From: a virus
Virus record (IMG/VR): IMGVR_UViG_3300019360_000004
Span: 1 to 53,840 of that record
DNA length: 53,840 nt
Direction: 5' to 3' (one strand)
Part shown: positions 9,227-53,597 of the stretch, piece after piece
Numbering within the stretch: position 1 is the first letter of the stretch
How the letters are laid out: each line of letters starts with the position of its first letter
The notes under the pieces: model-generated
Database searches by the model: none
The model's input: only the letters and a program-made list of their open reading frames with translations
What the model was told of the DNA's origin: nothing
Program-made: the position numbers and the translations under genes

Positions 9227-9436
9227 ATGCAATACGAAGTGCTGCGACCTTTTGAATGTGCTGGAGTGCAACTTCAGCCTGGAACGATTGTGGATGTCTC
9301 CACCTGGCGCCCGCGATGTGTCGAGGGCCTGATCAGTGATCGGCGCTTACGCCCGGTGAATATGCCCGCAGGCTTTGACGTGAAACTGGAACGCCGGAGC
9401 GGCAAGACCGCGCCTCTGTTCAGGGAGAAAACATAA
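9227..9436 (+). CDS. Small head-region hypothetical protein
   Basis: A 69-aa basic protein (MQYEVLRPFE...) preceded by AAGAAGGG. Short proteins of this pattern (CAGVQLQPGTIVDVSTWRP, DRRLRPVN) are common immediately downstream of capsid genes, but no function is established here. The TAA overlaps the next ATG by one base. Confidence 0.6.
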   Translation: MQYEVLRPFECAGVQLQPGTIVDVSTWRPRCVEGLISDRRLRPVNMPAGFDVKLERRSGKTAPLFREKT

Positions 9437-9936
9437 TGCCGAATTATTTGTTGCAAGCCGGCTTTCAGACAAACGCGATAGCGGCCGCTGTCATCGATGC
9501 GGCTGCTATCGAAAAAGTGCATACCGGCATTCGCGTTGACCGTGTCGCTGGCGCCTTACCAGCTACGACCACCCTCAATATTTTCAGTGTCACTGGGACC
9601 GTCTTGTTGACCGGCTTTCTGGGGGTCGTTGGCACGGTCATTCAGACGCAGACCTGTAACCTGAAGGTCTCTCTGATTGATACCCTTACCAGCACCACTA
9701 CCGATATATGCGCCAACCTCAACGTGAGCGCGAAAGCGGCGGGATCGCTGTTTACGATTACTGGTACGCTGGCTACAGCGTTGCAGAGTGGGCTCGTGCT
9801 TCCAGCGCAGGCCGCTCCTGTGATTCTCGTCCCGGGCACAGTGATACTGACGACGTCAGCAACAAATACGGGAACAGTTGCGTGGTCGGTCTGGTATCAC
9901 CCGCTGACCACCGGGGCCTCGATGACGGCTCTCTAG
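9436..9936 (+). CDS. Putative virion structural protein
   Basis: A 166-aa Thr/Ala-rich beta protein with repeated short strands (TTTLNIFSVTGTVLLTG, LFTITGTLATALQ). No catalytic motif. Overlaps its upstream neighbour by one base and sits between capsid and connector genes, so a head surface or decoration role is likely but unproven. Confidence 0.6.
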   Translation: MPNYLLQAGFQTNAIAAAVIDAAAIEKVHTGIRVDRVAGALPATTTLNIFSVTGTVLLTGFLGVVGTVIQTQTCNLKVSLIDTLTSTTTDICANLNVSAKAAGSLFTITGTLATALQSGLVLPAQAAPVILVPGTVILTTSATNTGTVAWSVWYHPLTTGASMTAL

Positions 9937-9945
9937 GAGGCGACG

Positions 9946-10374
9946 GTGCTGTTTCCTAACCGACAATATACGTTGCTTGCGACGGGCACCATCAGTGCAG
10001 CACAGAGCAACCAGCTTTCCCCTGTTGCGTATGATCTAGCTGGCATGATTGTGCTTATCTGTCAGGCCGGATTTCTGTATGGCTCAGGAGGTACGTCAGT
10101 CGATGCCTATGTCCAGACGTCGTTTGACGGCGGGACAACCTGGGTGGATATCATGGAGTTTAGCTTTACGACTAGCGCTGCAACGCGCTTGCATAGTGTG
10201 CGCGTTTATACTGCCGTTGCGGCGAACTATACGCCTACCGATGGGACGCTGACGGCCAATACGATTAAGGATGGCCTGCTCGGAGCGGCCCTGCGGGCAA
10301 AGTGGAGCAGCGTAGGAACGTATGCTGGTGCCACAAGTTTGACGATAGCGGCCGTCGTGAAAGGGCTCCGATGA
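9946..10374 (+). CDS. Putative virion structural protein
   Basis: A 142-aa protein starting with GTG after AGGAGG (9935-9940). It has beta-sandwich character with Ser/Thr-rich loops (AYVQTSFDGGTTWVDIMEF), similar in style to phage proteins of Ig-like or BNR-like folds. No specific family assigned. The stop overlaps the next start (ATGA). Confidence 0.6.
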   Translation: MLFPNRQYTLLATGTISAAQSNQLSPVAYDLAGMIVLICQAGFLYGSGGTSVDAYVQTSFDGGTTWVDIMEFSFTTSAATRLHSVRVYTAVAANYTPTDGTLTANTIKDGLLGAALRAKWSSVGTYAGATSLTIAAVVKGLR

Positions 10375-10793
10375 CCTGGACGTATAGCGGCAATCCCAGT
10401 GCTTCGACGCTCGATCAGGTGCGGTATCTGTGTCAGGACACAGATAGCACCGAGCAGCTCTTGCAGGATGCCGAGGTGACGTTTGAAATTGCGCAAAATC
10501 CCAACCCTTATCTGGCAGCAGCGGCCTGTGCGGAACGACTTAGTCTTAAGTTTGGTCGAGACGTGACCTTCCGCGTTGGGGATACCCAGGTAAACTATGG
10601 GGAGCGTGCGCGGGAGTATCGCCTACTAGCTACGCAATTGCGTCAACGGTATGCACTTCGCAGTGCGATGCCGTATGCTGGCGGGTTGAGTATCAGCGAA
10701 AAACAGACGATCTTAGCAGATACTGATCGGGTGGAACCTGCGTTTCATCGACAAGAGCCGGATGATACACCCGTCTGGGGGAACAGCGAGTGA
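10371..10793 (+). CDS. Head-tail connector (gp6-like adaptor)
   Basis: A 140-aa helical protein with the usual adaptor pattern: TLDQVRYLCQDTDSTEQLLQ near residues 14-33, then AAAACAERLSLKF and REYRLLATQLRQRY helices. Such proteins bind the portal ring once DNA is packaged. Starts inside the preceding stop (ATGA). Its TGA is followed by 13 sense codons leading in the same frame into the next gene. Confidence 0.65.
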   Translation: MTWTYSGNPSASTLDQVRYLCQDTDSTEQLLQDAEVTFEIAQNPNPYLAAAACAERLSLKFGRDVTFRVGDTQVNYGERAREYRLLATQLRQRYALRSAMPYAGGLSISEKQTILADTDRVEPAFHRQEPDDTPVWGNSE

Positions 10794-10832
10794 TGGCAAC
10801 CGGCGACGAGTGAGCTTGAGGAGTGGCGAGTA

Positions 10833-11180
10833 ATGGCTCTCTCACAGGCCATGTTGACGCGTATGGCCCGAACGGTCATGCGGGCGGAAGGCAGCCTTGT
10901 TGAAGTGGTGACCTATGTGTGGCGTAGTACGCCTGATGCCATGCCAGTCCAATATCCTGACCTTCGAGCCCTCATCACGGGGTATCAATATTGGCAGATT
11001 GATACCATGATTATTCAGCGTGAGGACCGACGCTTACGACTTCCAACTGCTGATGTGCTCTGGGTTCCAACTCCACTAGATACTGTTCTCCGCGCTGATA
11101 ATTCGTTGTGGCAGGTATTGACGGTTTCAGGGGGGCTGGCTGAGCCGTTTACGTTTTTCCAACTGCGACATATTGGGTGA
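10833..11180 (+). CDS. Head closure or head-tail joining protein
   Basis: A 115-aa protein beginning MALSQAMLTRMARTVMRAEG, with a central beta region (IDTMIIQREDRRLRLPT, VLWVPTPLDTVLRADNSLWQV). Size and position between the adaptor and the virion morphogenesis protein match a stopper/closure protein. The RBS is GAGGAGTGG upstream. Assignment by context. Confidence 0.55.
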   Translation: MALSQAMLTRMARTVMRAEGSLVEVVTYVWRSTPDAMPVQYPDLRALITGYQYWQIDTMIIQREDRRLRLPTADVLWVPTPLDTVLRADNSLWQVLTVSGGLAEPFTFFQLRHIG

Positions 11181-11198
11181 GACATTGAAGAGGTCTGA

Positions 11199-11465
11199 AT
11201 GATTCGTCGTGTACTATATTTGGCGGTGTTTCCTGTCTGTATGGGTGTGATAGTCGGATTTTTCGTATTTAGATTTCTTGGTTTTTGTATAACGCAGACA
11301 TCTATCCCTTCACCAATTTATAAGCAACATCTAGCTACTGATCATGACCATCGAACGGATGATGATTGTATGACTAAAGTCCAGAAAGAACAAATTCGTG
11401 CATGCTATGAGGCACAAATTAAAAAGTTTCAAAAACAATTGGCTGAGATACAAGGAAAGAAATAG
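11199..11465 (+). CDS. Small membrane-anchored hypothetical protein
   Basis: An 88-aa protein with one N-terminal membrane segment (residues about 6-32, VLYLAVFPVCMGVIVGFFVF) and a charged, lysine-rich, coiled-coil-like C-terminus. An N-in anchor with a periplasmic tail resembles an inner-membrane spanin, but it lies away from the lysis cassette. Function unknown. Confidence 0.5.
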   Translation: MIRRVLYLAVFPVCMGVIVGFFVFRFLGFCITQTSIPSPIYKQHLATDHDHRTDDDCMTKVQKEQIRACYEAQIKKFQKQLAEIQGKK

Positions 11466-37903: not shown

Positions 37904-38533
37904 CTAGACATATTCATGAGGAAACTCCTGTACGCGCAGGTCGTACGGCCACTCGTGTGGATCACTCCCGTTACGATCACGCCAGTGATACAGGACATTA
38001 CACACCACTGGCTCATGCGAATCATCTAAGACTATACATTCTCCGACGCTACAGTTCCCCAACTGTTTGACAAACACGGGTACACGCGCTGCCTGACACT
38101 GCTGCACGACGCTGCGGAGCCAAGAAATGTTACATGGGCGAGCGTTGGGACCACTTTCGCCGCCCATAATGACCAAGTCGAGCCGGGTGTGATGATCCAC
38201 ATGGCCAACGGCTATATCACAGTAAGAACCACACAAACCAAGCGGTTCGCCATACTGTCCATGAGGGACTCCATCAATATCGAAACGAAAATCAACTGCA
38301 TCCAACGGCTCATAACTGACAAAGTGTATCGCGGCCGGCGTCTGCAACAACCAGGGCATGCGGGCATCAGCCGTAGCCTGATTTTCGATGCTGACACCCA
38401 CCCAGACCCACGGCATGCCCTCGCAGCCATGCCCGCCCATCAGTCGATAGCCTGGCCCATCAGCAGCGTCCGCAAGCCATAGAAGTCCATTGAAAGGATT
38501 CCAGATACAATGTGTCCAACGGATGTTTGTCAT
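37904..38533 (-). CDS. Shortened DUF5131 (Gp37/Gp68) family protein
   Basis: A 209-aa protein starting MTNIRWTHCIWNPFNG and continuing VWVGVSIENQATADARMPWLL, FVSYEPLD, LDLVIMGGESGPNARP and VPVFVKQLG, all DUF5131 features. The usual N-terminal Cys-rich stretch and about 80-100 residues between WNP and the WVGVS strand are missing and replaced by a short Gly-rich segment. GAGGA precedes ATG 38533. Confidence 0.7.
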   Translation of the reverse strand: MTNIRWTHCIWNPFNGLLWLADAADGPGYRLMGGHGCEGMPWVWVGVSIENQATADARMPWLLQTPAAIHFVSYEPLDAVDFRFDIDGVPHGQYGEPLGLCGSYCDIAVGHVDHHTRLDLVIMGGESGPNARPCNISWLRSVVQQCQAARVPVFVKQLGNCSVGECIVLDDSHEPVVCNVLYHWRDRNGSDPHEWPYDLRVQEFPHEYV

Positions 38534-38557
38534 GATTGTTGTCCTCATAGTTCCTCG

Positions 38558-40935: not shown

Positions 40936-41860
40936 GAGTCTGTCTCCTTTGGTATTCGTAGTTACGGTGGAGCCACCCGCGAACAAAGCGTTTCCACCCT
41001 CCGGGACTTGCGGGACGTTTGCGGGGATTCTCACGGAGGTAGGCCGAGAGTTTGCCAAACTCCGCGTTGAGCCAGGGTTGACCAAAGACACCAGCAAGGG
41101 CTTGTGAAATATCTATCCACCAGTCCGCATCATTAAGCGCGTCGAAATCGAGCAATGTATAGTCGAGTAGAAGGGCTCGGAGCCAATCATCTTGGGGAAG
41201 TGGGTTCAATGAAGGGCGGCGAGTGGTGCGGGGGTAGTGCGGTTCAGGCATTTTCATCAGGGGTAGCATAGGCGTAGAGTCTGAAGGGATAGGCGGAATG
41301 AAAGGTTCGTGCCTTTCATCTCCGCCTAAACTCCTGAACGTAGTGAAGGAGTTTTCTTCTTTTTCTAGAAGATCTTCTCTAGAAGAATTCTCTAGAAAGA
41401 GTTCACGTGGTGCACTACGTAGTTCACCAGATGCACTAGGTGGTTCACGTGGTGCACTACGTAGTTCACCAGATGCACTAGTAGTGTTTATACTAGGTGG
41501 TACATCTGGTGTACTACGAAGAGAAAGTTCATCCATTTTCTCAAGGGTTGTGCTCAAGGGGAGCGATAATAAGGTATAGATGTTTTCTTCATGATGTCCC
41601 GCTCTAGCGACACGTTGGCTTTTGGCAAGAAGGTGGTGTACGGTTAAAGTTTCAAGAGTTTTGAGAATGGTGTTGCGTGAGATATGCAGTGTGCGGGCCA
41701 GAGTGGTCAGCGACGGTGTTGCATGGCCCTCGCGATCCGCATAACGAGCGAGGGCGGCATAGACGGCAATGCCATAGGCCCCAATCTGTGGGCCATAGAT
41801 ATCAACGATGATATCATGGATCCAAAACCAATGAGCTTCACGGCGGTCGCGGATTTCCAT
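40913..41860 (-). CDS. Replication initiator-like winged-helix protein
   Basis: A 315-aa protein. Residues about 15-95 form a winged-helix/HTH domain (IYGPQIGAYGIAVYAALARY, LTTLARTLHISRNTILKTLE). The middle has 7-residue repeats alternating SASGELR and SAPREPP, encoded by 21-bp DNA repeats (41401-41481). The C-terminus (WKRFVRGWLHRNYEYQRRQ) is basic. Lambda O has the same plan: N-terminal DNA-binding domain, iterons in the middle of the gene, C-terminal loader contact. GGAGGTCACG precedes ATG 41860. Confidence 0.62.
   Translation of the reverse strand: MEIRDRREAHWFWIHDIIVDIYGPQIGAYGIAVYAALARYADREGHATPSLTTLARTLHISRNTILKTLETLTVHHLLAKSQRVARAGHHEENIYTLLSLPLSTTLEKMDELSLRSTPDVPPSINTTSASGELRSAPREPPSASGELRSAPRELFLENSSREDLLEKEENSFTTFRSLGGDERHEPFIPPIPSDSTPMLPLMKMPEPHYPRTTRRPSLNPLPQDDWLRALLLDYTLLDFDALNDADWWIDISQALAGVFGQPWLNAEFGKLSAYLRENPRKRPASPGGWKRFVRGWLHRNYEYQRRQTHASTHRQ
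41367..41481. repeat. Iteron-like repeats and AT-rich palindrome, candidate replication origin
   Basis: GTTCAC...TGCACTA half-units of 21 bp occur four times in a row from 41401. The 39-bp block 41401-41439 recurs exactly at 41443-41481 (42-bp period). Immediately left lies TCTAGA-rich sequence with the 12-bp palindrome AGAAGATCTTCT (41367-41378). Four iterons beside an easily melted stretch inside an initiator gene is the lambda-type origin layout. Confidence 0.5.
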
Positions 41861-41956: not shown

Positions 41957-41988
41957 AGCCGTTGCTGTCCGGGCGAACAGCAACGGCT
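41957..41988. promoter_or_regulatory. Perfect 11-bp inverted repeat, candidate operator
   Basis: AGCCGTTGCTG (41957-41967) and CAGCAACGGCT (41978-41988) form a perfect inverted repeat with a 10-bp spacer. It lies between the divergent initiator and csf operons, overlapping the predicted start of the leftward transcript. The XRE protein at 42072 is the obvious candidate binder. Confidence 0.55.
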
Positions 41989-41991
41989 CTC

Positions 41992-42020
41992 AGTATAGCA
42001 CGCCAGGTGAGGAATGTACA
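41992..42020 (-). promoter_or_regulatory. Candidate leftward promoter for the replication module
   Basis: On the minus strand, TGTACA (42015-42020) is followed after 17 bp by TATACT (41992-41997), which is preceded by TGC, an extended -10. It would drive the initiator gene starting at 41860. Confidence 0.5.
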
Positions 42021-42039
42021 TGTTTTTGCCGAAAAAAAA

Positions 42040-42048
42040 TGCTAGACT
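42040..42048 (+). promoter_or_regulatory. Candidate extended -10 promoter for the csf operon
   Basis: TGCTAGACT at 42040-42048 matches an extended -10 (TGn plus TAGACT). No good -35 is present; the spacer is A-rich. The first gene starts at 42072, behind AGGAGG. Overlap with the leftward promoter region implies shared control. Confidence 0.35.
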
Positions 42049-42071
42049 TGTGTAGGAGGTGACGATGAGTA

Positions 42072-42344
42072 ATGAGTGAGATAGAGATTTTCTCGAATCT
42101 GGATATGCGGCAATTCGCGGCGCGATTGCGCGCCGCTCGGGAGCGAGCGGGCCTGACACAGACCCAGGTCGCGCTGTTTGCGGCACTGAATCTGGGCAAT
42201 TATAATGAGCTGGAATGTGGCCATAAGCCTGGCTTGCGTGCGACGACGCTCTACCGGCTTTGCCAGGTATTGCGCGTCAGCGCCGATGATCTGCTCGGGT
42301 TTGATCTGCCCATGGCGGCGCTCGCGGGGGAGACTGAGGCATGA
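42072..42344 (+). CDS. XRE-family regulator leading the csf operon
   Basis: A 90-aa helix-turn-helix protein: RLRAARERAGLTQTQVALFA, then LNLGNYNELECGHKPG and LYRLCQVLRVSADDLLGFD. The stop overlaps the Csf1 start (ATGA), so it is translated as part of the csf operon and is a candidate autoregulator at 41957-41988. AGGAGG is 13 bases upstream, so the start is slightly uncertain; ATG 42105 is an alternative. Confidence 0.8.
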   Translation: MSEIEIFSNLDMRQFAARLRAARERAGLTQTQVALFAALNLGNYNELECGHKPGLRATTLYRLCQVLRVSADDLLGFDLPMAALAGETEA

Positions 42345-43237
42345 GCCCGTTGCATCAGCAAGTCAGCGCTGCCGTGTCTCTGCTCCCTCCCATCAGTCAT
42401 TTTTTGGCCCCTGATGCGCCAGCCGGCCCGGCGACGGGCCAATGTGGCGTGTGTGGGGTCACCACAGCGGGTATGTACCCGCGCGCCACGGTGCTCGATA
42501 CGACGGGGAGCAATATCACCACCCTCTTTCCCCACAACACGCCTTACATGTGCCGCCATTGTACCGCGCTGTGGAAACGGCCCAAGCACTGGCATCGAGG
42601 GATCTTTGCGACGGCCGAGACCACCTATTTCCCGCTGATTGCCGACAATGAGCACCGGAGCGCAGACCGCCCGCTTTGGCGCGATCTCCTCTGCACGCCC
42701 GGTTGCTGGCATGAGAGGCCCCGCGCCTGTGTCCTGACGACAGACCCCAAAAAACGTGTCTGGCCACACGCGCGGGTCTCGCAGGGGGCACGGCTCCTGC
42801 TCTATCTCCATGATCCGACTCGCGGTGTCAGTGGCAATCGGTGGGTCACCTGGGAGCGCCTGGCACAAACCCTCGCGCTCGTCGAGCAGGCATATGCGTT
42901 GGGCGCAGCCAAGGCGCAGATTGCCGAGACGCTGTATACGCCTAGGCTCCTGAAAGCCCACGGCTTGGCCCCGTTGCAGACGCTGGAAGTGGTGCTCCGG
43001 CAGGTCCGACATCTGCCGGAGTTTCTCCCGGCGCTGATTGTGGCGCAAAAACCTCCTGAGGAGACCCTGCATGCTGATACGTCCGCAGACCGACCGCATA
43101 CTGCTCCACCTGGAGTTGACCACCAGCTTGGCACACGGCGAGGCTGGTGCCAATCGCGTGGGGCCGAGCAACTTGAGCTTATTGCACCGGCAGCTCGCGC
43201 TCCTGCCGGTGAGTGCGAGTGCGAGCCTGGCGGGTGA
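42341..43237 (+). CDS. csf1: Csf1-like zinc-finger subunit of a type IV-B CRISPR-like complex
   Basis: A 298-aa protein with a four-Cys zinc site, C35-x2-C38 (QCGVCG) and C71-x2-C74 (MCRHCT), then DRPLWRDLL with further Cys at 118, 122 and 130, and a helical C-terminal half (WERLAQTLALVEQAYALG). This is the Csf1/Cas8-like signature gene of type IV systems. It overlaps csf2 by 167 bp, and the last 55 residues have unusual composition, so the native end may be near the csf2 start. Confidence rests on the zinc pattern plus csf2-csf3-cysH behind it. Confidence 0.8.
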   Translation: MSPLHQQVSAAVSLLPPISHFLAPDAPAGPATGQCGVCGVTTAGMYPRATVLDTTGSNITTLFPHNTPYMCRHCTALWKRPKHWHRGIFATAETTYFPLIADNEHRSADRPLWRDLLCTPGCWHERPRACVLTTDPKKRVWPHARVSQGARLLLYLHDPTRGVSGNRWVTWERLAQTLALVEQAYALGAAKAQIAETLYTPRLLKAHGLAPLQTLEVVLRQVRHLPEFLPALIVAQKPPEETLHADTSADRPHTAPPGVDHQLGTRRGWCQSRGAEQLELIAPAARAPAGECECEPGG

Positions 43238-44507
43238 CCCCCTCCTTCGCATTAGCGCAACGCTCAACCTCTTCCTGGTCGGTGATCAGGTGTTGCCCTT
43301 TCTTGATGCGCTGGATGGCCCCCAGGTGCTCGCCTGCCTGCTCGTCAGTCTGTTCCCCCAGATATACAGCGGCGAGGATGGCGAGGGCGTGGGCCTGTTT
43401 AGCGGGATGCAACGCTATCAATACCTAAGCACGCGACTCGGGGACGCTGTGGTCTCGTGCACCACCCTGGGCGAGTTGTGGGCGGTCGTGAGTCGCCATC
43501 TAGGCTTGCCGCATCCGGTGGAGGAGTGGCACGCGCCGCTGCTCGCCTTGTGCACGCTGCTGCCCCAGACACAGGCGGCAGTCATGCACGCGCTGCGACA
43601 GACGTTGCCGCTCCTCATGATGGGGGGGCGGGAAATCGCCGAGTCCGTCAAGTGCTGCAATCCTCGCTATGCCACCCGGGCCTCCAGGCCCCTGCAACAG
43701 GCCGTCGTTCCCACGCTTTCCGATGCCCAGCGTGCTACGTTTCAGCAGGCCCTGCCTGAGCGGCAGGCCGTCCTCCTGCCAGCGCTGAGTGGGAATGCGT
43801 TGCGCCATGTGCTCCTGCGGGCACCCGGCGCCGTGCGGCTGCTTCAGGCCCTAGGATTGGATCCGCAGCACGACGCCGTGCCGGTGGGCGTTGAGCGGTT
43901 CCTGTTTGGCGGCGGCAACACGGCGGCCAAAGTCAGCACGCCGAGCAACGCGGATCTCCTGGAAACGACCGTGCGCGCCCGCTATCCATTCGTGGATGCC
44001 CTGGGCGGGGCCGTGGACCGTTTCTTGTTCAGCCGCAGTCAGGTGGCCATCGCGAGTTGGATCGTCTGTCGCGAGCACAATGCGGCTACCGAGGAGATTG
44101 CCGGACTCACATCGCAGGTAAGTCTCCTTGATACGATCTACGAGGAGACCCGCACACGGGCCGGGATTGGGGGCAAGGATGCTGCGAGTGGCCAGATGAT
44201 TTTTAGCTACGAGGTTTTGCCCCTCGGCACACAGGTCCTGGTCGAGATCCGTTTCCAGCCCTGGACGTCGCCACGCACGAAGGGGGCTATGCAGCAGGCC
44301 GTGCAGGATTGGTACGCCAGCGGGGCGTGTCTCGGAGCCAAAAATGCGCAGGGACATGGCGTCTGTCGAGTGCTCCGCGCCGAACTTCCCTATGCGCAGG
44401 AGGCCGCAGACTATCTCATCTCTCTGGAGACCGAGCGGGAGGCGTTGGCGGCAGGTCTCCGAGATGCCACGTTTGGCACAGGAATGGTGTTATGCGCCCA
44501 GATCTAG
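43071..44507 (+). CDS. csf2: Csf2 (Cas7-type RAMP backbone protein) with a large insertion
   Basis: A 478-aa Cas7-group protein, the subunit that polymerises along guide RNA in type IV complexes. The first RAMP strand and loop are at 8-44 (ILLHLELTTSLAHGE, NLSLLHRQL). The family motif PALSGNALRH is at 247-256, RFLFGGGN at 276-283, and the Gly-rich LGAKNAQGHGVC at 421-432. Between residue 48 and 245 is a mostly helical insert not expected in a standard Csf2. AGGAG precedes ATG 43071. Confidence 0.85.
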   Translation: MLIRPQTDRILLHLELTTSLAHGEAGANRVGPSNLSLLHRQLALLPVSASASLAGDPLLRISATLNLFLVGDQVLPFLDALDGPQVLACLLVSLFPQIYSGEDGEGVGLFSGMQRYQYLSTRLGDAVVSCTTLGELWAVVSRHLGLPHPVEEWHAPLLALCTLLPQTQAAVMHALRQTLPLLMMGGREIAESVKCCNPRYATRASRPLQQAVVPTLSDAQRATFQQALPERQAVLLPALSGNALRHVLLRAPGAVRLLQALGLDPQHDAVPVGVERFLFGGGNTAAKVSTPSNADLLETTVRARYPFVDALGGAVDRFLFSRSQVAIASWIVCREHNAATEEIAGLTSQVSLLDTIYEETRTRAGIGGKDAASGQMIFSYEVLPLGTQVLVEIRFQPWTSPRTKGAMQQAVQDWYASGACLGAKNAQGHGVCRVLRAELPYAQEAADYLISLETEREALAAGLRDATFGTGMVLCAQI

Positions 44508-45229
44508 CCCATCGTGATCCCCTCGATGCCTATGGCGCGCTGTGCGCCACGTTGCCGCATACGCCCCTGCGCGTAACCGTGCAGACGCTGACGCCGGTGG
44601 TCAGCCTTGATCTGCTCAATTTCGATGGCCTTCTGGCCAAAGCGATGGTCCTTGCCACCTGGGGCACGGGCGTGTTCCCCGCCTCGGAGTCCCCTTACTG
44701 GCTCCCTCTGCCGCTGGCATACACGGAGCATGTCGGGCTGCCTCTGTGGCACGCCACCACGCTGTTCCGGGTAGGCGGGGCGGAGGGTGCGACGCATTAC
44801 CATAAGCGCACCGAGGACAATCCATACAGCCTTCTGGCGATCCGCCCGGCGCTTGGGCAGCGCCGCCCACGCCGGCAGCCCTCCACCGCGGCAGGGCAGT
44901 ACATGAATTACCGCATTCCTGAGCCCTATCAGGTGGCGGAGTATTGGGAGTGCCTGTGTCTGGGGCATGCCGGGGAGCTTGCGCGCTTGCTGCCGTATCT
45001 TCAGGGGATCGGGAAAGATTGTGCCCAGGGCTACGGACGTATCCTGGGATGGACCGTGGAGCCGCATGACGGGCCGCTGGCCCCTGACGACACCGACGAG
45101 GTCTGGCGGCCTACACCGACGACCACAGTGACTGGTGTCCTGAGCGGGTGGACGCCTCCCTATTGGAGACGCGATCTATGGTTGCCTTGCCGTGTACCCT
45201 CGCTGACTGGGCCGCCCTGGGCATCATAG
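44492..45229 (+). CDS. csf3: Csf3 (Cas5-type RAMP protein)
   Basis: A 245-aa Cas5-group protein that would cap the 5' handle end of a guide RNA. Visible Csf3 features are the N-terminal strand with TPVVSLDLLNFDGLLAKAM (34-52), a basic HYHKRTEDNPYSLL segment (102-115), the Gly-rich loop GIGKDCAQGYGRI (172-184) and the closing PPYWRRDLW. It starts inside csf2 (16-bp overlap) and overlaps the CysH-like start by 52 bp, so translation of the set is coupled. Confidence 0.85.
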   Translation: MRPDLAHRDPLDAYGALCATLPHTPLRVTVQTLTPVVSLDLLNFDGLLAKAMVLATWGTGVFPASESPYWLPLPLAYTEHVGLPLWHATTLFRVGGAEGATHYHKRTEDNPYSLLAIRPALGQRRPRRQPSTAAGQYMNYRIPEPYQVAEYWECLCLGHAGELARLLPYLQGIGKDCAQGYGRILGWTVEPHDGPLAPDDTDEVWRPTPTTTVTGVLSGWTPPYWRRDLWLPCRVPSLTGPPWAS

Positions 45230-45999
45230 GGCAGGTGCATTATGGTCAACCGGCGCGTGCCCTGCCGTATCGGCGGGTCATTGAGTGTAAGACCTCGGCG
45301 GCGGTGGCACTGATTGCCGACTGGTGGGACAAGGTAGAGGGTCACGGTTATGTCGCTCTCTCCTTTGGCAAGGATAGTCTCGTGACTTGGCATCTGGCGC
45401 AACAGGTGGCGCCGATTCCGGCCGTGTTTGTGGCTCTTGGGCCGTTGGGCGACTGGCCCGACTGTTTGCAACTCAAAGAGGTGCTGCGTGCCGAGCATGA
45501 CTTGTCCGTGATCGAGGTTCCGGCGGTCCCGAGTCATTATGACCGCCTAGTCTTGCAACAGCGCTCTGGCCATCACCAGGGCTGGTCGACGTGTGCCGAA
45601 ACGACGGAGCGGTTTCACCACGAGCAGCCGCAGTGGCGCGGACTCCTTTGGGGCTTGCGTGGAGTCAAAGAGCCGCATCGAGAGGGTATCCATCGTGAAA
45701 TCCTTTTTCACACCCATGGCCTCCTGTACCAGCGCGCCTCGGATAGGCGGTGGGTGGGGGCACCGGTCGGCTGGTGGAAGAACCCCGAGATCTGGGCGTA
45801 CATTGACCTGCATGGGTTACCGTATCCGGCCATGTATGATGTTGATCGGGCGCGGATTCGGAATGGACCGCCTTTCACATTTCCGGGGGAAGCTGTCGGG
45901 CGGATCCGGAACATCCGCCGAGCGTTTCCCGAGATCTTCCGGATCGTCCTCAGTCTGGTACCTGCCGACTATGCCGCGCGGCTCTCACGACAGGCCTAA
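45178..45999 (+). CDS. cysH-like: CysH-like PP-loop protein of the type IV-B module
   Basis: A 273-aa PAPS-reductase-family protein. The ATP-pyrophosphatase PP-loop SFGKDS is at 62-67, followed by CAETTERFH, LLWGLRGVKEPHREGI (147-161) and a C-terminal AMYDVDRARIRNGPP. CysH-like genes are a known companion of type IV-B csf operons; their activity there is unresolved and need not be sulfonucleotide reduction. GGAGACGC precedes ATG 45178; the upstream in-frame ATG lies within csf3. Confidence 0.88.
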   Translation: MVALPCTLADWAALGIIGQVHYGQPARALPYRRVIECKTSAAVALIADWWDKVEGHGYVALSFGKDSLVTWHLAQQVAPIPAVFVALGPLGDWPDCLQLKEVLRAEHDLSVIEVPAVPSHYDRLVLQQRSGHHQGWSTCAETTERFHHEQPQWRGLLWGLRGVKEPHREGIHREILFHTHGLLYQRASDRRWVGAPVGWWKNPEIWAYIDLHGLPYPAMYDVDRARIRNGPPFTFPGEAVGRIRNIRRAFPEIFRIVLSLVPADYAARLSRQA

Positions 46000-46147
46000 G
46001 CGTTGGAGGGCTCCAGGATGGATGACACGAGCGCGGCATCCGCCGTCATCGTCAACTGCTGTTTCGGCGTAGCCCTCCACGTCTCCCCGTGACGGACCGT
46101 CACCAATTTGCCACCCCATCGACATTGGTTGCTGTAATAGATTTCAT
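45996..46147 (-). pseudogene. Frameshifted small gene convergent with the CysH-like gene
   Basis: AAGGAGG precedes ATG 46147 (MKSITATNVDGVA), but the frame hits TGA after 15 codons while VTVRHGETWRATPKQQLTMT and ADAALVSSILEPSNA continue in another frame to TAG 45996-45998, overlapping the CysH stop. The RHGETWRATPKQ part duplicates a segment of the 46158-46370 gene (33 of 37 bases match between 46060-46096 and 46249-46285). Confidence 0.45.
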
Positions 46148-51399: not shown

Positions 51400-51825
51400 T
51401 TACGCCTCTCGGAGGGCGGCCAGGAATCCACCGCGTCGGGCAATCAGCGCCTTCGCTTCCCGCAGGTAGGGAGCGAGTGGCTTCTGGGTCGTCGTGTTGA
51501 TGTGCACGATGATCGCGGTGGGCAGTACTTCGTGGTCGAGGTACGTCGCCACGTCCGCCGCGAACTGCTCCCAGGGCCGGTTGCCACGGACGCTATTGCA
51601 GTGGTGACAACACGTCACCAAGTTTTCGGGGCCATTGTCGCCGCCGTGGCTGTGCGGGGTCAGGTGGTCGAGGGTCAGTTTGATGCCGTCCTCGATGCCC
51701 TGGCCGCAATAGGCGCAGGCGAGGCCGTCGCGGAGGTAAATGGCTAATCGTTTGCCTGGCCGAATCCAGTTCATCCCTTGACCCTGTCCGTTGCTTTTCT
51801 GATGACGATCCAGTATGCTATGCAC
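51400..51825 (-). CDS. HNH endonuclease
   Basis: A 141-aa HNH nuclease. The metal-finger is complete: CAYC at 37-40, LDHLTPHSHGG with the catalytic DH at 53-54, ENLV, and CCHHCN at 72-77. GTG 51825 is preceded by AGGAGAAACAATC; ATG 51774 is an alternative start that keeps the whole domain. Phage HNH proteins often act in packaging or homing; neither is proven here. Confidence 0.85.
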   Translation of the reverse strand: MHSILDRHQKSNGQGQGMNWIRPGKRLAIYLRDGLACAYCGQGIEDGIKLTLDHLTPHSHGGDNGPENLVTCCHHCNSVRGNRPWEQFAADVATYLDHEVLPTAIIVHINTTTQKPLAPYLREAKALIARRGGFLAALREA

Positions 51826-51866
51826 GATTGTTTCTCCTGTGCTTTCAGAGGGAATGTGAGACTCAG

Positions 51867-51897
51867 GAGCCCTAGGTACTGTCCCTACCTGGGGCTC
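51867..51897 (-). other. Intercistronic hairpin embracing a stop codon
   Basis: GAGCCCTAGGTA (51867-51878) and TACCTGGGGCTC (51886-51897) pair at 11 of 12 positions around a 7-nt loop. The TAG of the 51885-52046 gene overlaps the right arm, as in the hairpin at 46840-46869. Confidence 0.45.
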
Positions 51898-52046
51898 TCC
51901 TGTGTGTGCTGTCCGACAGGTTGCTGCGGCGGGCGGGCCGCCCATTCCGCTTCGATCCTCCGGATGTGTTCGTCCTCGATGTGCTTATACCAATCGCTGG
52001 CGCCCTTCCGTTCCTGCTTGTGGCCGGTCACGTGGCCATGCTTCAC
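51885..52046 (-). CDS. Small charged hypothetical protein
   Basis: A 53-aa protein (VKHGHVTGHKQERKGASDWY..., read with Met at the GTG) behind GGGAGGAAA, the best ribosome binding site in the area. It contains HIEDEHIRRIEAEWAARPPQ. Function unknown. Confidence 0.5.
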   Translation of the reverse strand: MKHGHVTGHKQERKGASDWYKHIEDEHIRRIEAEWAARPPQQPVGQHTQESPR

Positions 52047-52328: not shown

Positions 52329-52377
52329 ATACCATGGTGTTCATAGAAACACAAGTCTGTTTTCCCAGGAGGTGCGT

Positions 52378-52602
52378 ATGCCACCCTTCCCGGATACTAC
52401 GTTAGGTCTGCGGGTCCGTGCCGCCCGTCTGCAGGTGGGTATGAGCCAGGGCGATCTCGCCCGGCGGATTGGCATGACCCAGGCAAATCTCTGCATGATC
52501 GAGCAGGGAGATACACAAAATCCCGGCGCCGGCCGGATCCGCGCGATTGCGCAGGTGCTGCATGTGAGTGCGGATTATTTGTTGGGATTGTCGGATGAGT
52601 GA
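52378..52602 (+). CDS. XRE-family transcription regulator
   Basis: A 74-aa Cro/CI-like HTH protein: LGLRVRAARLQVGMSQGDLA, RRIGMTQANLCMIEQGDTQN, then RIRAIAQVLHVSADYLLGLS. AGGAGG ends 5 bases before ATG 52378. It is the only rightward gene in an otherwise leftward module, so it may set the early/late or lysis/persistence switch. Confidence 0.82.
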   Translation: MPPFPDTTLGLRVRAARLQVGMSQGDLARRIGMTQANLCMIEQGDTQNPGAGRIRAIAQVLHVSADYLLGLSDE

Positions 52603-53130: not shown

Positions 53131-53367
53131 AGGTCACTTCTATCGCATTCCGTGCTGCACTCCAGCGGCAACGACGTTTCATCGTGGCGGCAACGACATC
53201 GCTATGCAGGATGGAACAGTTGGGATGGAGCCAGGGAGGAGCCGAGGGACGGGAGGCAGGGAACGATTTTTCCCTGGCGCTTCGCTTTGATTTTATAGGC
53301 AGGAAGGAAAATGTCAAGGAAATTGCCGCCGATGTTTTGCGCAAGGAACGACGTAGACTGCTTCTCC

Positions 53368-53567
53368 AAAGTTTACATAATATCGGATCGCGAAGTTTAC
53401 TAGTGGTAGTTTATGCTGGTCTACATGCATGGATTATCAAAGTTTACATAATATCGGTGTTTCTCTGAAGTCTTTTTCTTTCAAGAAGTTGTAGACGGAA
53501 AAAATGCGCATTATCAGAAGTTAAGTATTTTGCTGGTGGTTGACAGTTTCGCGTATTATCAGAAGTT
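53368..53567. repeat. Direct repeats in the late-operon control region
   Basis: AAAGTTTACATAATATCGG occurs at 53368-53386 and 53439-53457. ATTATCAGAAGTT occurs at 53510-53522 and 53555-53567, with a variant ATTATCAAAGTTT at 53433-53445. The AT-rich stretch 53131-53694 holds these but no convincing gene. The sites look like activator or repressor operators, or an origin. Confidence 0.65.
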
Positions 53568-53597
53568 GTGAATTGTCTTGACATCCATGAAGAGGGT

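Follow-up and report, generated by a model that had tools for sequence, protein, structure and literature searches.

A phage-borne type IV-B Csf operon whose Csf2 very probably combines Cas7 with a nested Cas11 domain

The DNA analysed here, referred to as the window, is a virus contig of 53,840 nt. It carries a 123-bp direct terminal repeat and genes for a terminase, a portal, a head maturation protease, a major head protein and a tape measure protein, which identify it as a tailed-phage genome, probably a complete one. For the major head protein the nearest matches are in Arthrobacter phages (50%), and for the terminase in other phages (<40%). On the + strand, positions 42072-45999 hold an operon with the gene order XRE, csf1, csf2, csf3 and cysH. 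A previous examination of this DNA, the sequence-only reading, had described a phage-carried, type IV-B-like set of Csf1, Csf2, Csf3 and a CysH-like protein with an XRE gene as first cistron. The five open reading frames that it called are all present, with every frame intact in the window, and PADLOC, NCBIfam and Pfam profiles agree on the gene set. Its placing of the XRE gene is borne out by a Pfam match at the head of the operon, and the phage carrier by the structural genes and terminal repeat given above. The features of the locus are as follows.

41984..42071, no strand: short gap separating the operon from the replication-initiation gene, which runs leftwards from 41983
42072..42344, + strand: XRE/Cro-CI family regulator, 90 aa, first cistron (Pfam HTH_31, 2.3e-8)
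42341..43237, + strand: Csf1, the Cas8-like large subunit of type IV, carrying two CxxC pairs (PADLOC typeIV_Cas8, 3e-11, residues 22-241)
43071..44507, + strand: Csf2, 478 aa, read as a composite Cas7 with a nested Cas11 domain (profiles, splicing test, AlphaFold2 model)
43071..43208, + strand: N-terminal part of Cas7, residues 1-46 (modelled as two strands; splicing test)
43209..43757, + strand: probable insert corresponding to the Cas11 small subunit, residues 47-229 (helices over ~57-226; BLASTP, 7JHY, PADLOC, hhalign)
43758..44504, + strand: remainder of Cas7, residues 230-478, with PALSGNALRH (PADLOC; structural matches to type IV-A Csf2)
44492..45229, + strand: Csf3 (Cas5-type RAMP) with the Gly-rich loop GIGKDCAQGYGRI (PADLOC, 2e-32; NCBIfam cas5_csf3, 4.6e-12)
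45148..45999, + strand: CysH-like PP-loop protein with SFGKDS (Pfam PF01507, PAPS_reduct, 5e-8)

The neighbours on both sides of the csf operon are opposite-strand genes, and the divergent replication-initiation gene lies 88 bases away. Within the intergenic region AGGAGG can be read ahead of the XRE start, and no convincing + strand sigma-70 promoter was found there. The XRE gene and csf1 share 4 nt, but no XRE homologue was found at the loci of relatives with a nested Csf2. An alignment of relatives shows that csf1 conservation stops near 43070 and that its last ~57 codons, which overlap csf2, are not conserved. The stop position used by csf1 of relatives is lost in the window.

Csf1 is matched weakly by NCBIfam cas8u_csf1 (0.0068, under NCBI's equivalog cut-off), and its cysteines C35, C38, C71 and C74 are invariant among the aligned relatives. 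None of the operon proteins had a Cas10 or HD match in Pfam or PADLOC; type IV-C, which has a Cas10-like large subunit with HD instead of Csf1, was rejected on this result and on the Csf1 profile match. The NCBIfam match of Csf3 is also under NCBI's equivalog cut-off, and the Csf3 family profile matches the PDB Csf3 chain 7xfz_B at 1.3e-23. As the sequence-only reading had expected, the products starting at 43071 and 44492 fall in RAMP families, and the motifs that it cited (two CxxC in Csf1, PALSGNALRH in Csf2 and GIGKDCAQGYGRI in Csf3) are present. The true start of cysH may be the ATG at 45178. Its product is 42-43% identical to the CysH of nested relatives, and the family profile matches a solved PAPS reductase in the PDB (8e-16). 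The translation does not show the catalytic Cys motif that PAPS reductases have at the C-terminus. Where the PP-loop of the window reads SFGKDS, that of the closest relatives reads SFGADS or SFGVDS, and the chemistry of CysH is therefore uncertain.

A ribosome-binding site, GAGGAG, lies just upstream of csf2 at 43071. The encoded protein has 478 residues, compared with about 270-410 for most uninterrupted Csf2 proteins of relatives. On the intact protein, the PADLOC typeIV_Cas7 match (4.6e-21) starts at residue 230, which corresponds to profile position 40. After in-silico excision of residues 47-229 the match is collinear, covers positions 5-272 of the 280-position profile and scores 86.4 bits instead of 73.3, and this gain was repeated in relatives L063 and L059. 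Searched alone, the excised insert matches PADLOC type IV Cas11 at 4e-5; the L059 insert reaches E = 0.05 and the L063 insert gave no match in the same search. Residues 61-193 share 31% identity with the stand-alone Cas11 of the Mycobacterium plasmid pMYC1 (BLASTP, E = 4e-11), Csf2 as a single sequence matches the Cas11 chain of PDB 7JHY (E = 1e-3), and hhalign relates the family's insert to stand-alone Cas11 proteins with 91.6% probability. The Csf2 family profile also matches the Cas7 (Csf2) chain of 7JHY at 4e-36, far better than type IV-A chains, and one Csf2 polypeptide thus matches two different chains, Cas7 and Cas11, of a single structure. The same profile scores a chain named Cas7c (11fs) about equal to 7JHY Csf2, so Cas7 alone cannot separate Csf2 from that group.

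An AlphaFold2 model of Csf2 (25 sequences, mean pLDDT 82.8) has one strand at residues 9-16 and another at 38-46, continues with helices over residues 57-226, and then completes the Cas7 fold. In Foldseek the model matches type IV-A Csf2 at 2.5e-7 and 7JHY Csf2 more weakly, at 1e-3; the type IV-A Csf2 structures 8rc3 and 7xg1 are the best structural matches to the Cas7 part. Profiles and model therefore uphold the earlier naming of Csf2 as a Cas7-type protein with a Cas7 fold, which had overlooked the composite with an inserted Cas11. We consider it very probable that Cas11 is inserted in a loop near the Cas7 N-terminus, within one polypeptide. Since the single-sequence profile matches to Cas11 are weak, the identity of the insert rests on several independent weak-to-moderate signals taken with the model and gene order. 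In canonical operons Cas11 immediately precedes Cas7, so an ordinary end-to-end Cas11-Cas7 fusion would be easily reached; such a fusion, or a chimeric assembly error, is extremely unlikely here, as residues 1-46 align to the Cas7 N-terminus, removal of the insert restores a collinear Cas7 match, and the nested architecture is present in nine other contigs.

Relatives of the operon were reached by alignment-based queries only. A Csf3 alignment search found 24 viral contigs with csf3, and a nested-Csf2 alignment search found nine (L057-L065, 44-49% identity), the same nine being returned by a second scan. Two more distant contigs, L066 and L067, proved to be the contigs of L006 and L005. Single-sequence searches with Csf2 in IMG/VR, and with Csf2 and Csf3 in GenBank phages, returned nothing, and plasmid and GenBank phage records contained no match over the length of the nested Csf2. 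The insert is carried by L057-L065 except L064, whose start is truncated. Most complete nested loci keep the order csf1-csf2-csf3-cysH; L061 and L062 have the cysH-like gene ahead of csf3, and a ~600-base gap separates csf3 and cysH in L059. Nearly all loci retain the cysH-like gene. A separate ORF of 118-171 aa lies between csf1 and csf2 in 14 other loci (which include two plasmid reference loci and some near-duplicates) and in none of the nested loci; a separate cas11 gene is lacking because Cas11 sits inside Csf2.

A second nested group consists of L021, L023 and the Bacteroidales MAG contig L033, the last being the only nested case among seven loci found by a Csf3 scan of a genome collection. 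In L021 the PADLOC Cas11 match occupies Csf2 residues 46-155, before most of the Cas7 match. A tree of the Cas7 core unites the window, L057-L065 (minus the truncated L064) and L005 in one clade (100/100), and the best tree places the L021/L023/L033 group apart from it. An AU test did not reject a single nested clade (p 0.44). Cas11 was perhaps nested independently in the Bacteroidales-linked group. At another locus, L022, where the order is csf2-csf1-cysH-csf3, Csf2 (867-2264) has an N-terminal extension of ~170 residues; an end-on Cas11 fusion was considered and rejected, the extension having no significant Cas11 match. One viral locus, L012, contains a tandem pair of csf3-like ORFs (9296-11329).

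The four csf and cysH genes are under strong purifying selection, with dN/dS between relatives of 0.02-0.18 for all four and 0.02-0.10 for cysH. The GC content of the operon is 63.5%, compared with 54.5 +/- 2.2% (maximum 59.7%) in same-length stretches elsewhere in the phage. The operon of L063 lies between a terminase (phrog_38) and a portal (phrog_145), and that of the window beside a replication gene. Being GC-rich for its phage and found at different sites in different phages, the operon behaves as a mobile cassette; the terminase and portal of L063 belong to other families than those of the window, and the cassette therefore moves between unrelated phages. Foreign base composition and loss of the relatives' csf1 stop position would also suit a decaying, functionless passenger. 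This reading is very unlikely, since the reading frames are all intact and the relatives' four genes are strongly purified by selection.

We found no array-like repeats in the whole window or near the operon of relatives. Two candidates in the window were rejected as arrays: a tandem 42-nt repeat at 41401-41481 (SASGELRSAPREPP), which is coding sequence within the replication-initiation protein, and a pair of copies at 46060 and 46249, one of them in a downstream ORF, spaced much too widely to form a repeat-spacer unit. Near the contig end are two intergenic pairs of direct repeats, one of identical 20-nt copies (53367-53386 and 53438-53457) and one of 24-nt copies at 83% (53506-53529 and 53551-53574); these are probably operators or, less probably, a minimal repeat-spacer unit. 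Rfam and tRNA scans of the window were empty. Cas6 had no match among the ORFs scanned, which include part of the small ones, and the operon has no recognisable nuclease.

The operon is almost certainly a type IV-B Csf system. It combines a small Cas8-like large subunit with zinc-finger cysteines (csf1), a type IV csf2, a Cas5-type csf3 and an adjacent cysH-like gene without the catalytic Cys, and it has neither a CRISPR array nor, among scanned ORFs, a Cas6; the Cas11 small subunit is found as a Csf2-internal domain instead of the usual separate gene. The type IV-B systems of Mycobacterium sp. JS623 (7JHY) and actinobacterial megaplasmids such as pMYC1 have csf1, a Cas7-type csf2, a Cas5-type csf3 and Cas11 in common with it, pMYC1 likewise encodes a CysH-like protein nearby, and in all of them the operon is without array, Cas6 and nuclease. 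They differ in having a separate cas11 and a plasmid carrier, where the window has a nested Cas11 and a phage carrier. Type IV-A, in contrast, has DinG, Cas6 and an array, and no Cas11. The sequence-only reading was fair in calling plasmids the main known carriers of type IV-B, but there were already reports of type IV-B in viruses (PMC10848311) and of type IV in prophages and phages (PMC11656645). The Fuxivirus type IV-B of Bathyarchaeia viruses resembles the window in its virus-borne csf1, csf2, csf3 and cysH and differs in its archaeal virus and its mini-array; the available portion of that account describes no nested Cas11 (PMC10848311).

Cas7 and Cas11 domains also share a polypeptide in Cas7-11 (type III-E gRAMP) and Cas7-11i (subtype III-I). 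Those proteins have tandem Cas7 domains with Cas11 as one domain, use crRNA and have known or predicted RNA cleavage, whereas the window has a single Cas7 interrupted by Cas11. Assignment of Csf2 to type III-E or III-I was rejected, each Csf2 having one Cas7 fold and not several in tandem. The 2025 classification lists tandem Cas7-11 proteins and a Cas11-nuclease fusion, and its available sections make no mention of Cas11 nested in a single Cas7 (PMC12669027). A literature search of incomplete coverage found no nested Cas7-Cas11 fusion.

The gene set, nesting, conservation, selection, presence in different phages and lack of any array sign are computed results. We read them, with a probability of about 0.6, as a phage-carried mobile type IV-B Csf variant that has Cas7 and Cas11 in one polypeptide and acts as an array-free RNP. 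In Mycobacterium the type IV-B complex (7JHY) forms on RNA that is regular in length but heterogeneous and mostly non-CRISPR, and its Cas11 occupies the Csf2-Csf2 interfaces (PMC7937560); by analogy the Csf proteins of the window probably form an RNA-bound RNP. In such an assembly each Csf2 copy would supply one backbone and one belly unit, at 1:1, and the copies would polymerise on host or phage RNA, not on RNA from an array of their own. The filament would be capped by Csf3 and Csf1, and the substrate of the CysH-like PP-loop protein would be the bound nucleic acid or a nucleotide. With no recognisable nuclease in the operon, the RNP would act through binding. Asp42 of 7JHY Csf2, putatively catalytic, aligns with Ser33 in the window and with Asn in most nested relatives, which together with the missing nuclease makes binding likelier than cutting.

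Type IV-B has been proposed to act, among other ways, as a sponge for guide RNAs or through modification that depends on CysH (PMC8175902). As the most likely role we tentatively favour a protective one, in which the RNP would sequester small RNAs, host guides for example, to the benefit of the phage; the conservation of CysH is not explained by this sponge hypothesis. Somewhat less probable is an RNP guided by host crRNAs or a cryptic phage mini-array, which would act without cleavage to silence defence genes of the host, plasmids or rival phages. Nuclease-free repression of targets is known for type IV-A (PMC11656645), the Fuxivirus locus has a one-spacer mini-array (PMC10848311), and the Cas5-type subunit Csf3 is well conserved; yet the operon and its relatives have no array-like repeats nearby, crRNAs were not enriched in the solved type IV-B complex (PMC7937560), and the repeat pairs at 53367-53574 resemble operators more than an array. 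Comparably speculative is the idea that CysH is the working end, with the filament bringing in a PP-loop enzyme to adenylate, or modify in another way, a nucleotide or the nucleic acid that the filament binds, so that phage molecules would be marked as self or a host signal disarmed. It would account for the near-universal and strongly selected cysH-like gene and accords with the proposal that CasCysH proteins lacking the catalytic Cys are ATP alpha-hydrolases (PMC8175902). Against it, the PP-loop Lys of the window is replaced by A or V in the closest relatives, and the activity may therefore vary or be lost.

More speculatively than the sponge role, the array-free RNP could represent a distinct, self-contained phage lineage derived from type IV-B, with its own small subunit at a fixed 1:1 ratio, which would coat RNA by length and not sequence and serve, with CysH, as a counter-defence or competition machine; Cas11 may have entered the same Cas7 loop twice, in the lineage of the window and in the Bacteroidales-linked one. 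A phage type IV-B with inseparable backbone and small subunit amounts to a simple system of three proteins (Csf1, fused Csf2 and Csf3) plus CysH, which would allow direct testing of assembly, bound RNA and benefit to the phage. The nested Cas7-Cas11 would also be a further route to compact multi-subunit CRISPR effectors, beside tandem Cas7-11.

Several other genes were observed around these loci. In L058 (11061-13003) and L065 (12551-14190) the csf operon has as neighbours a ParB-like gene and a second gene of the PAPS-reductase family (phrog_2302). L003, an archaeal plasmid operon, is likewise followed by PAPS-reductase and ParB-domain genes, and L005 has a PAPS-reductase gene downstream. In the window itself, the early region contains HNH endonuclease and DUF5131 genes (51400-51945 and 37904-38548), and a second XRE-type regulator at 52372-52602 is related to the first gene of the operon (1e-5).
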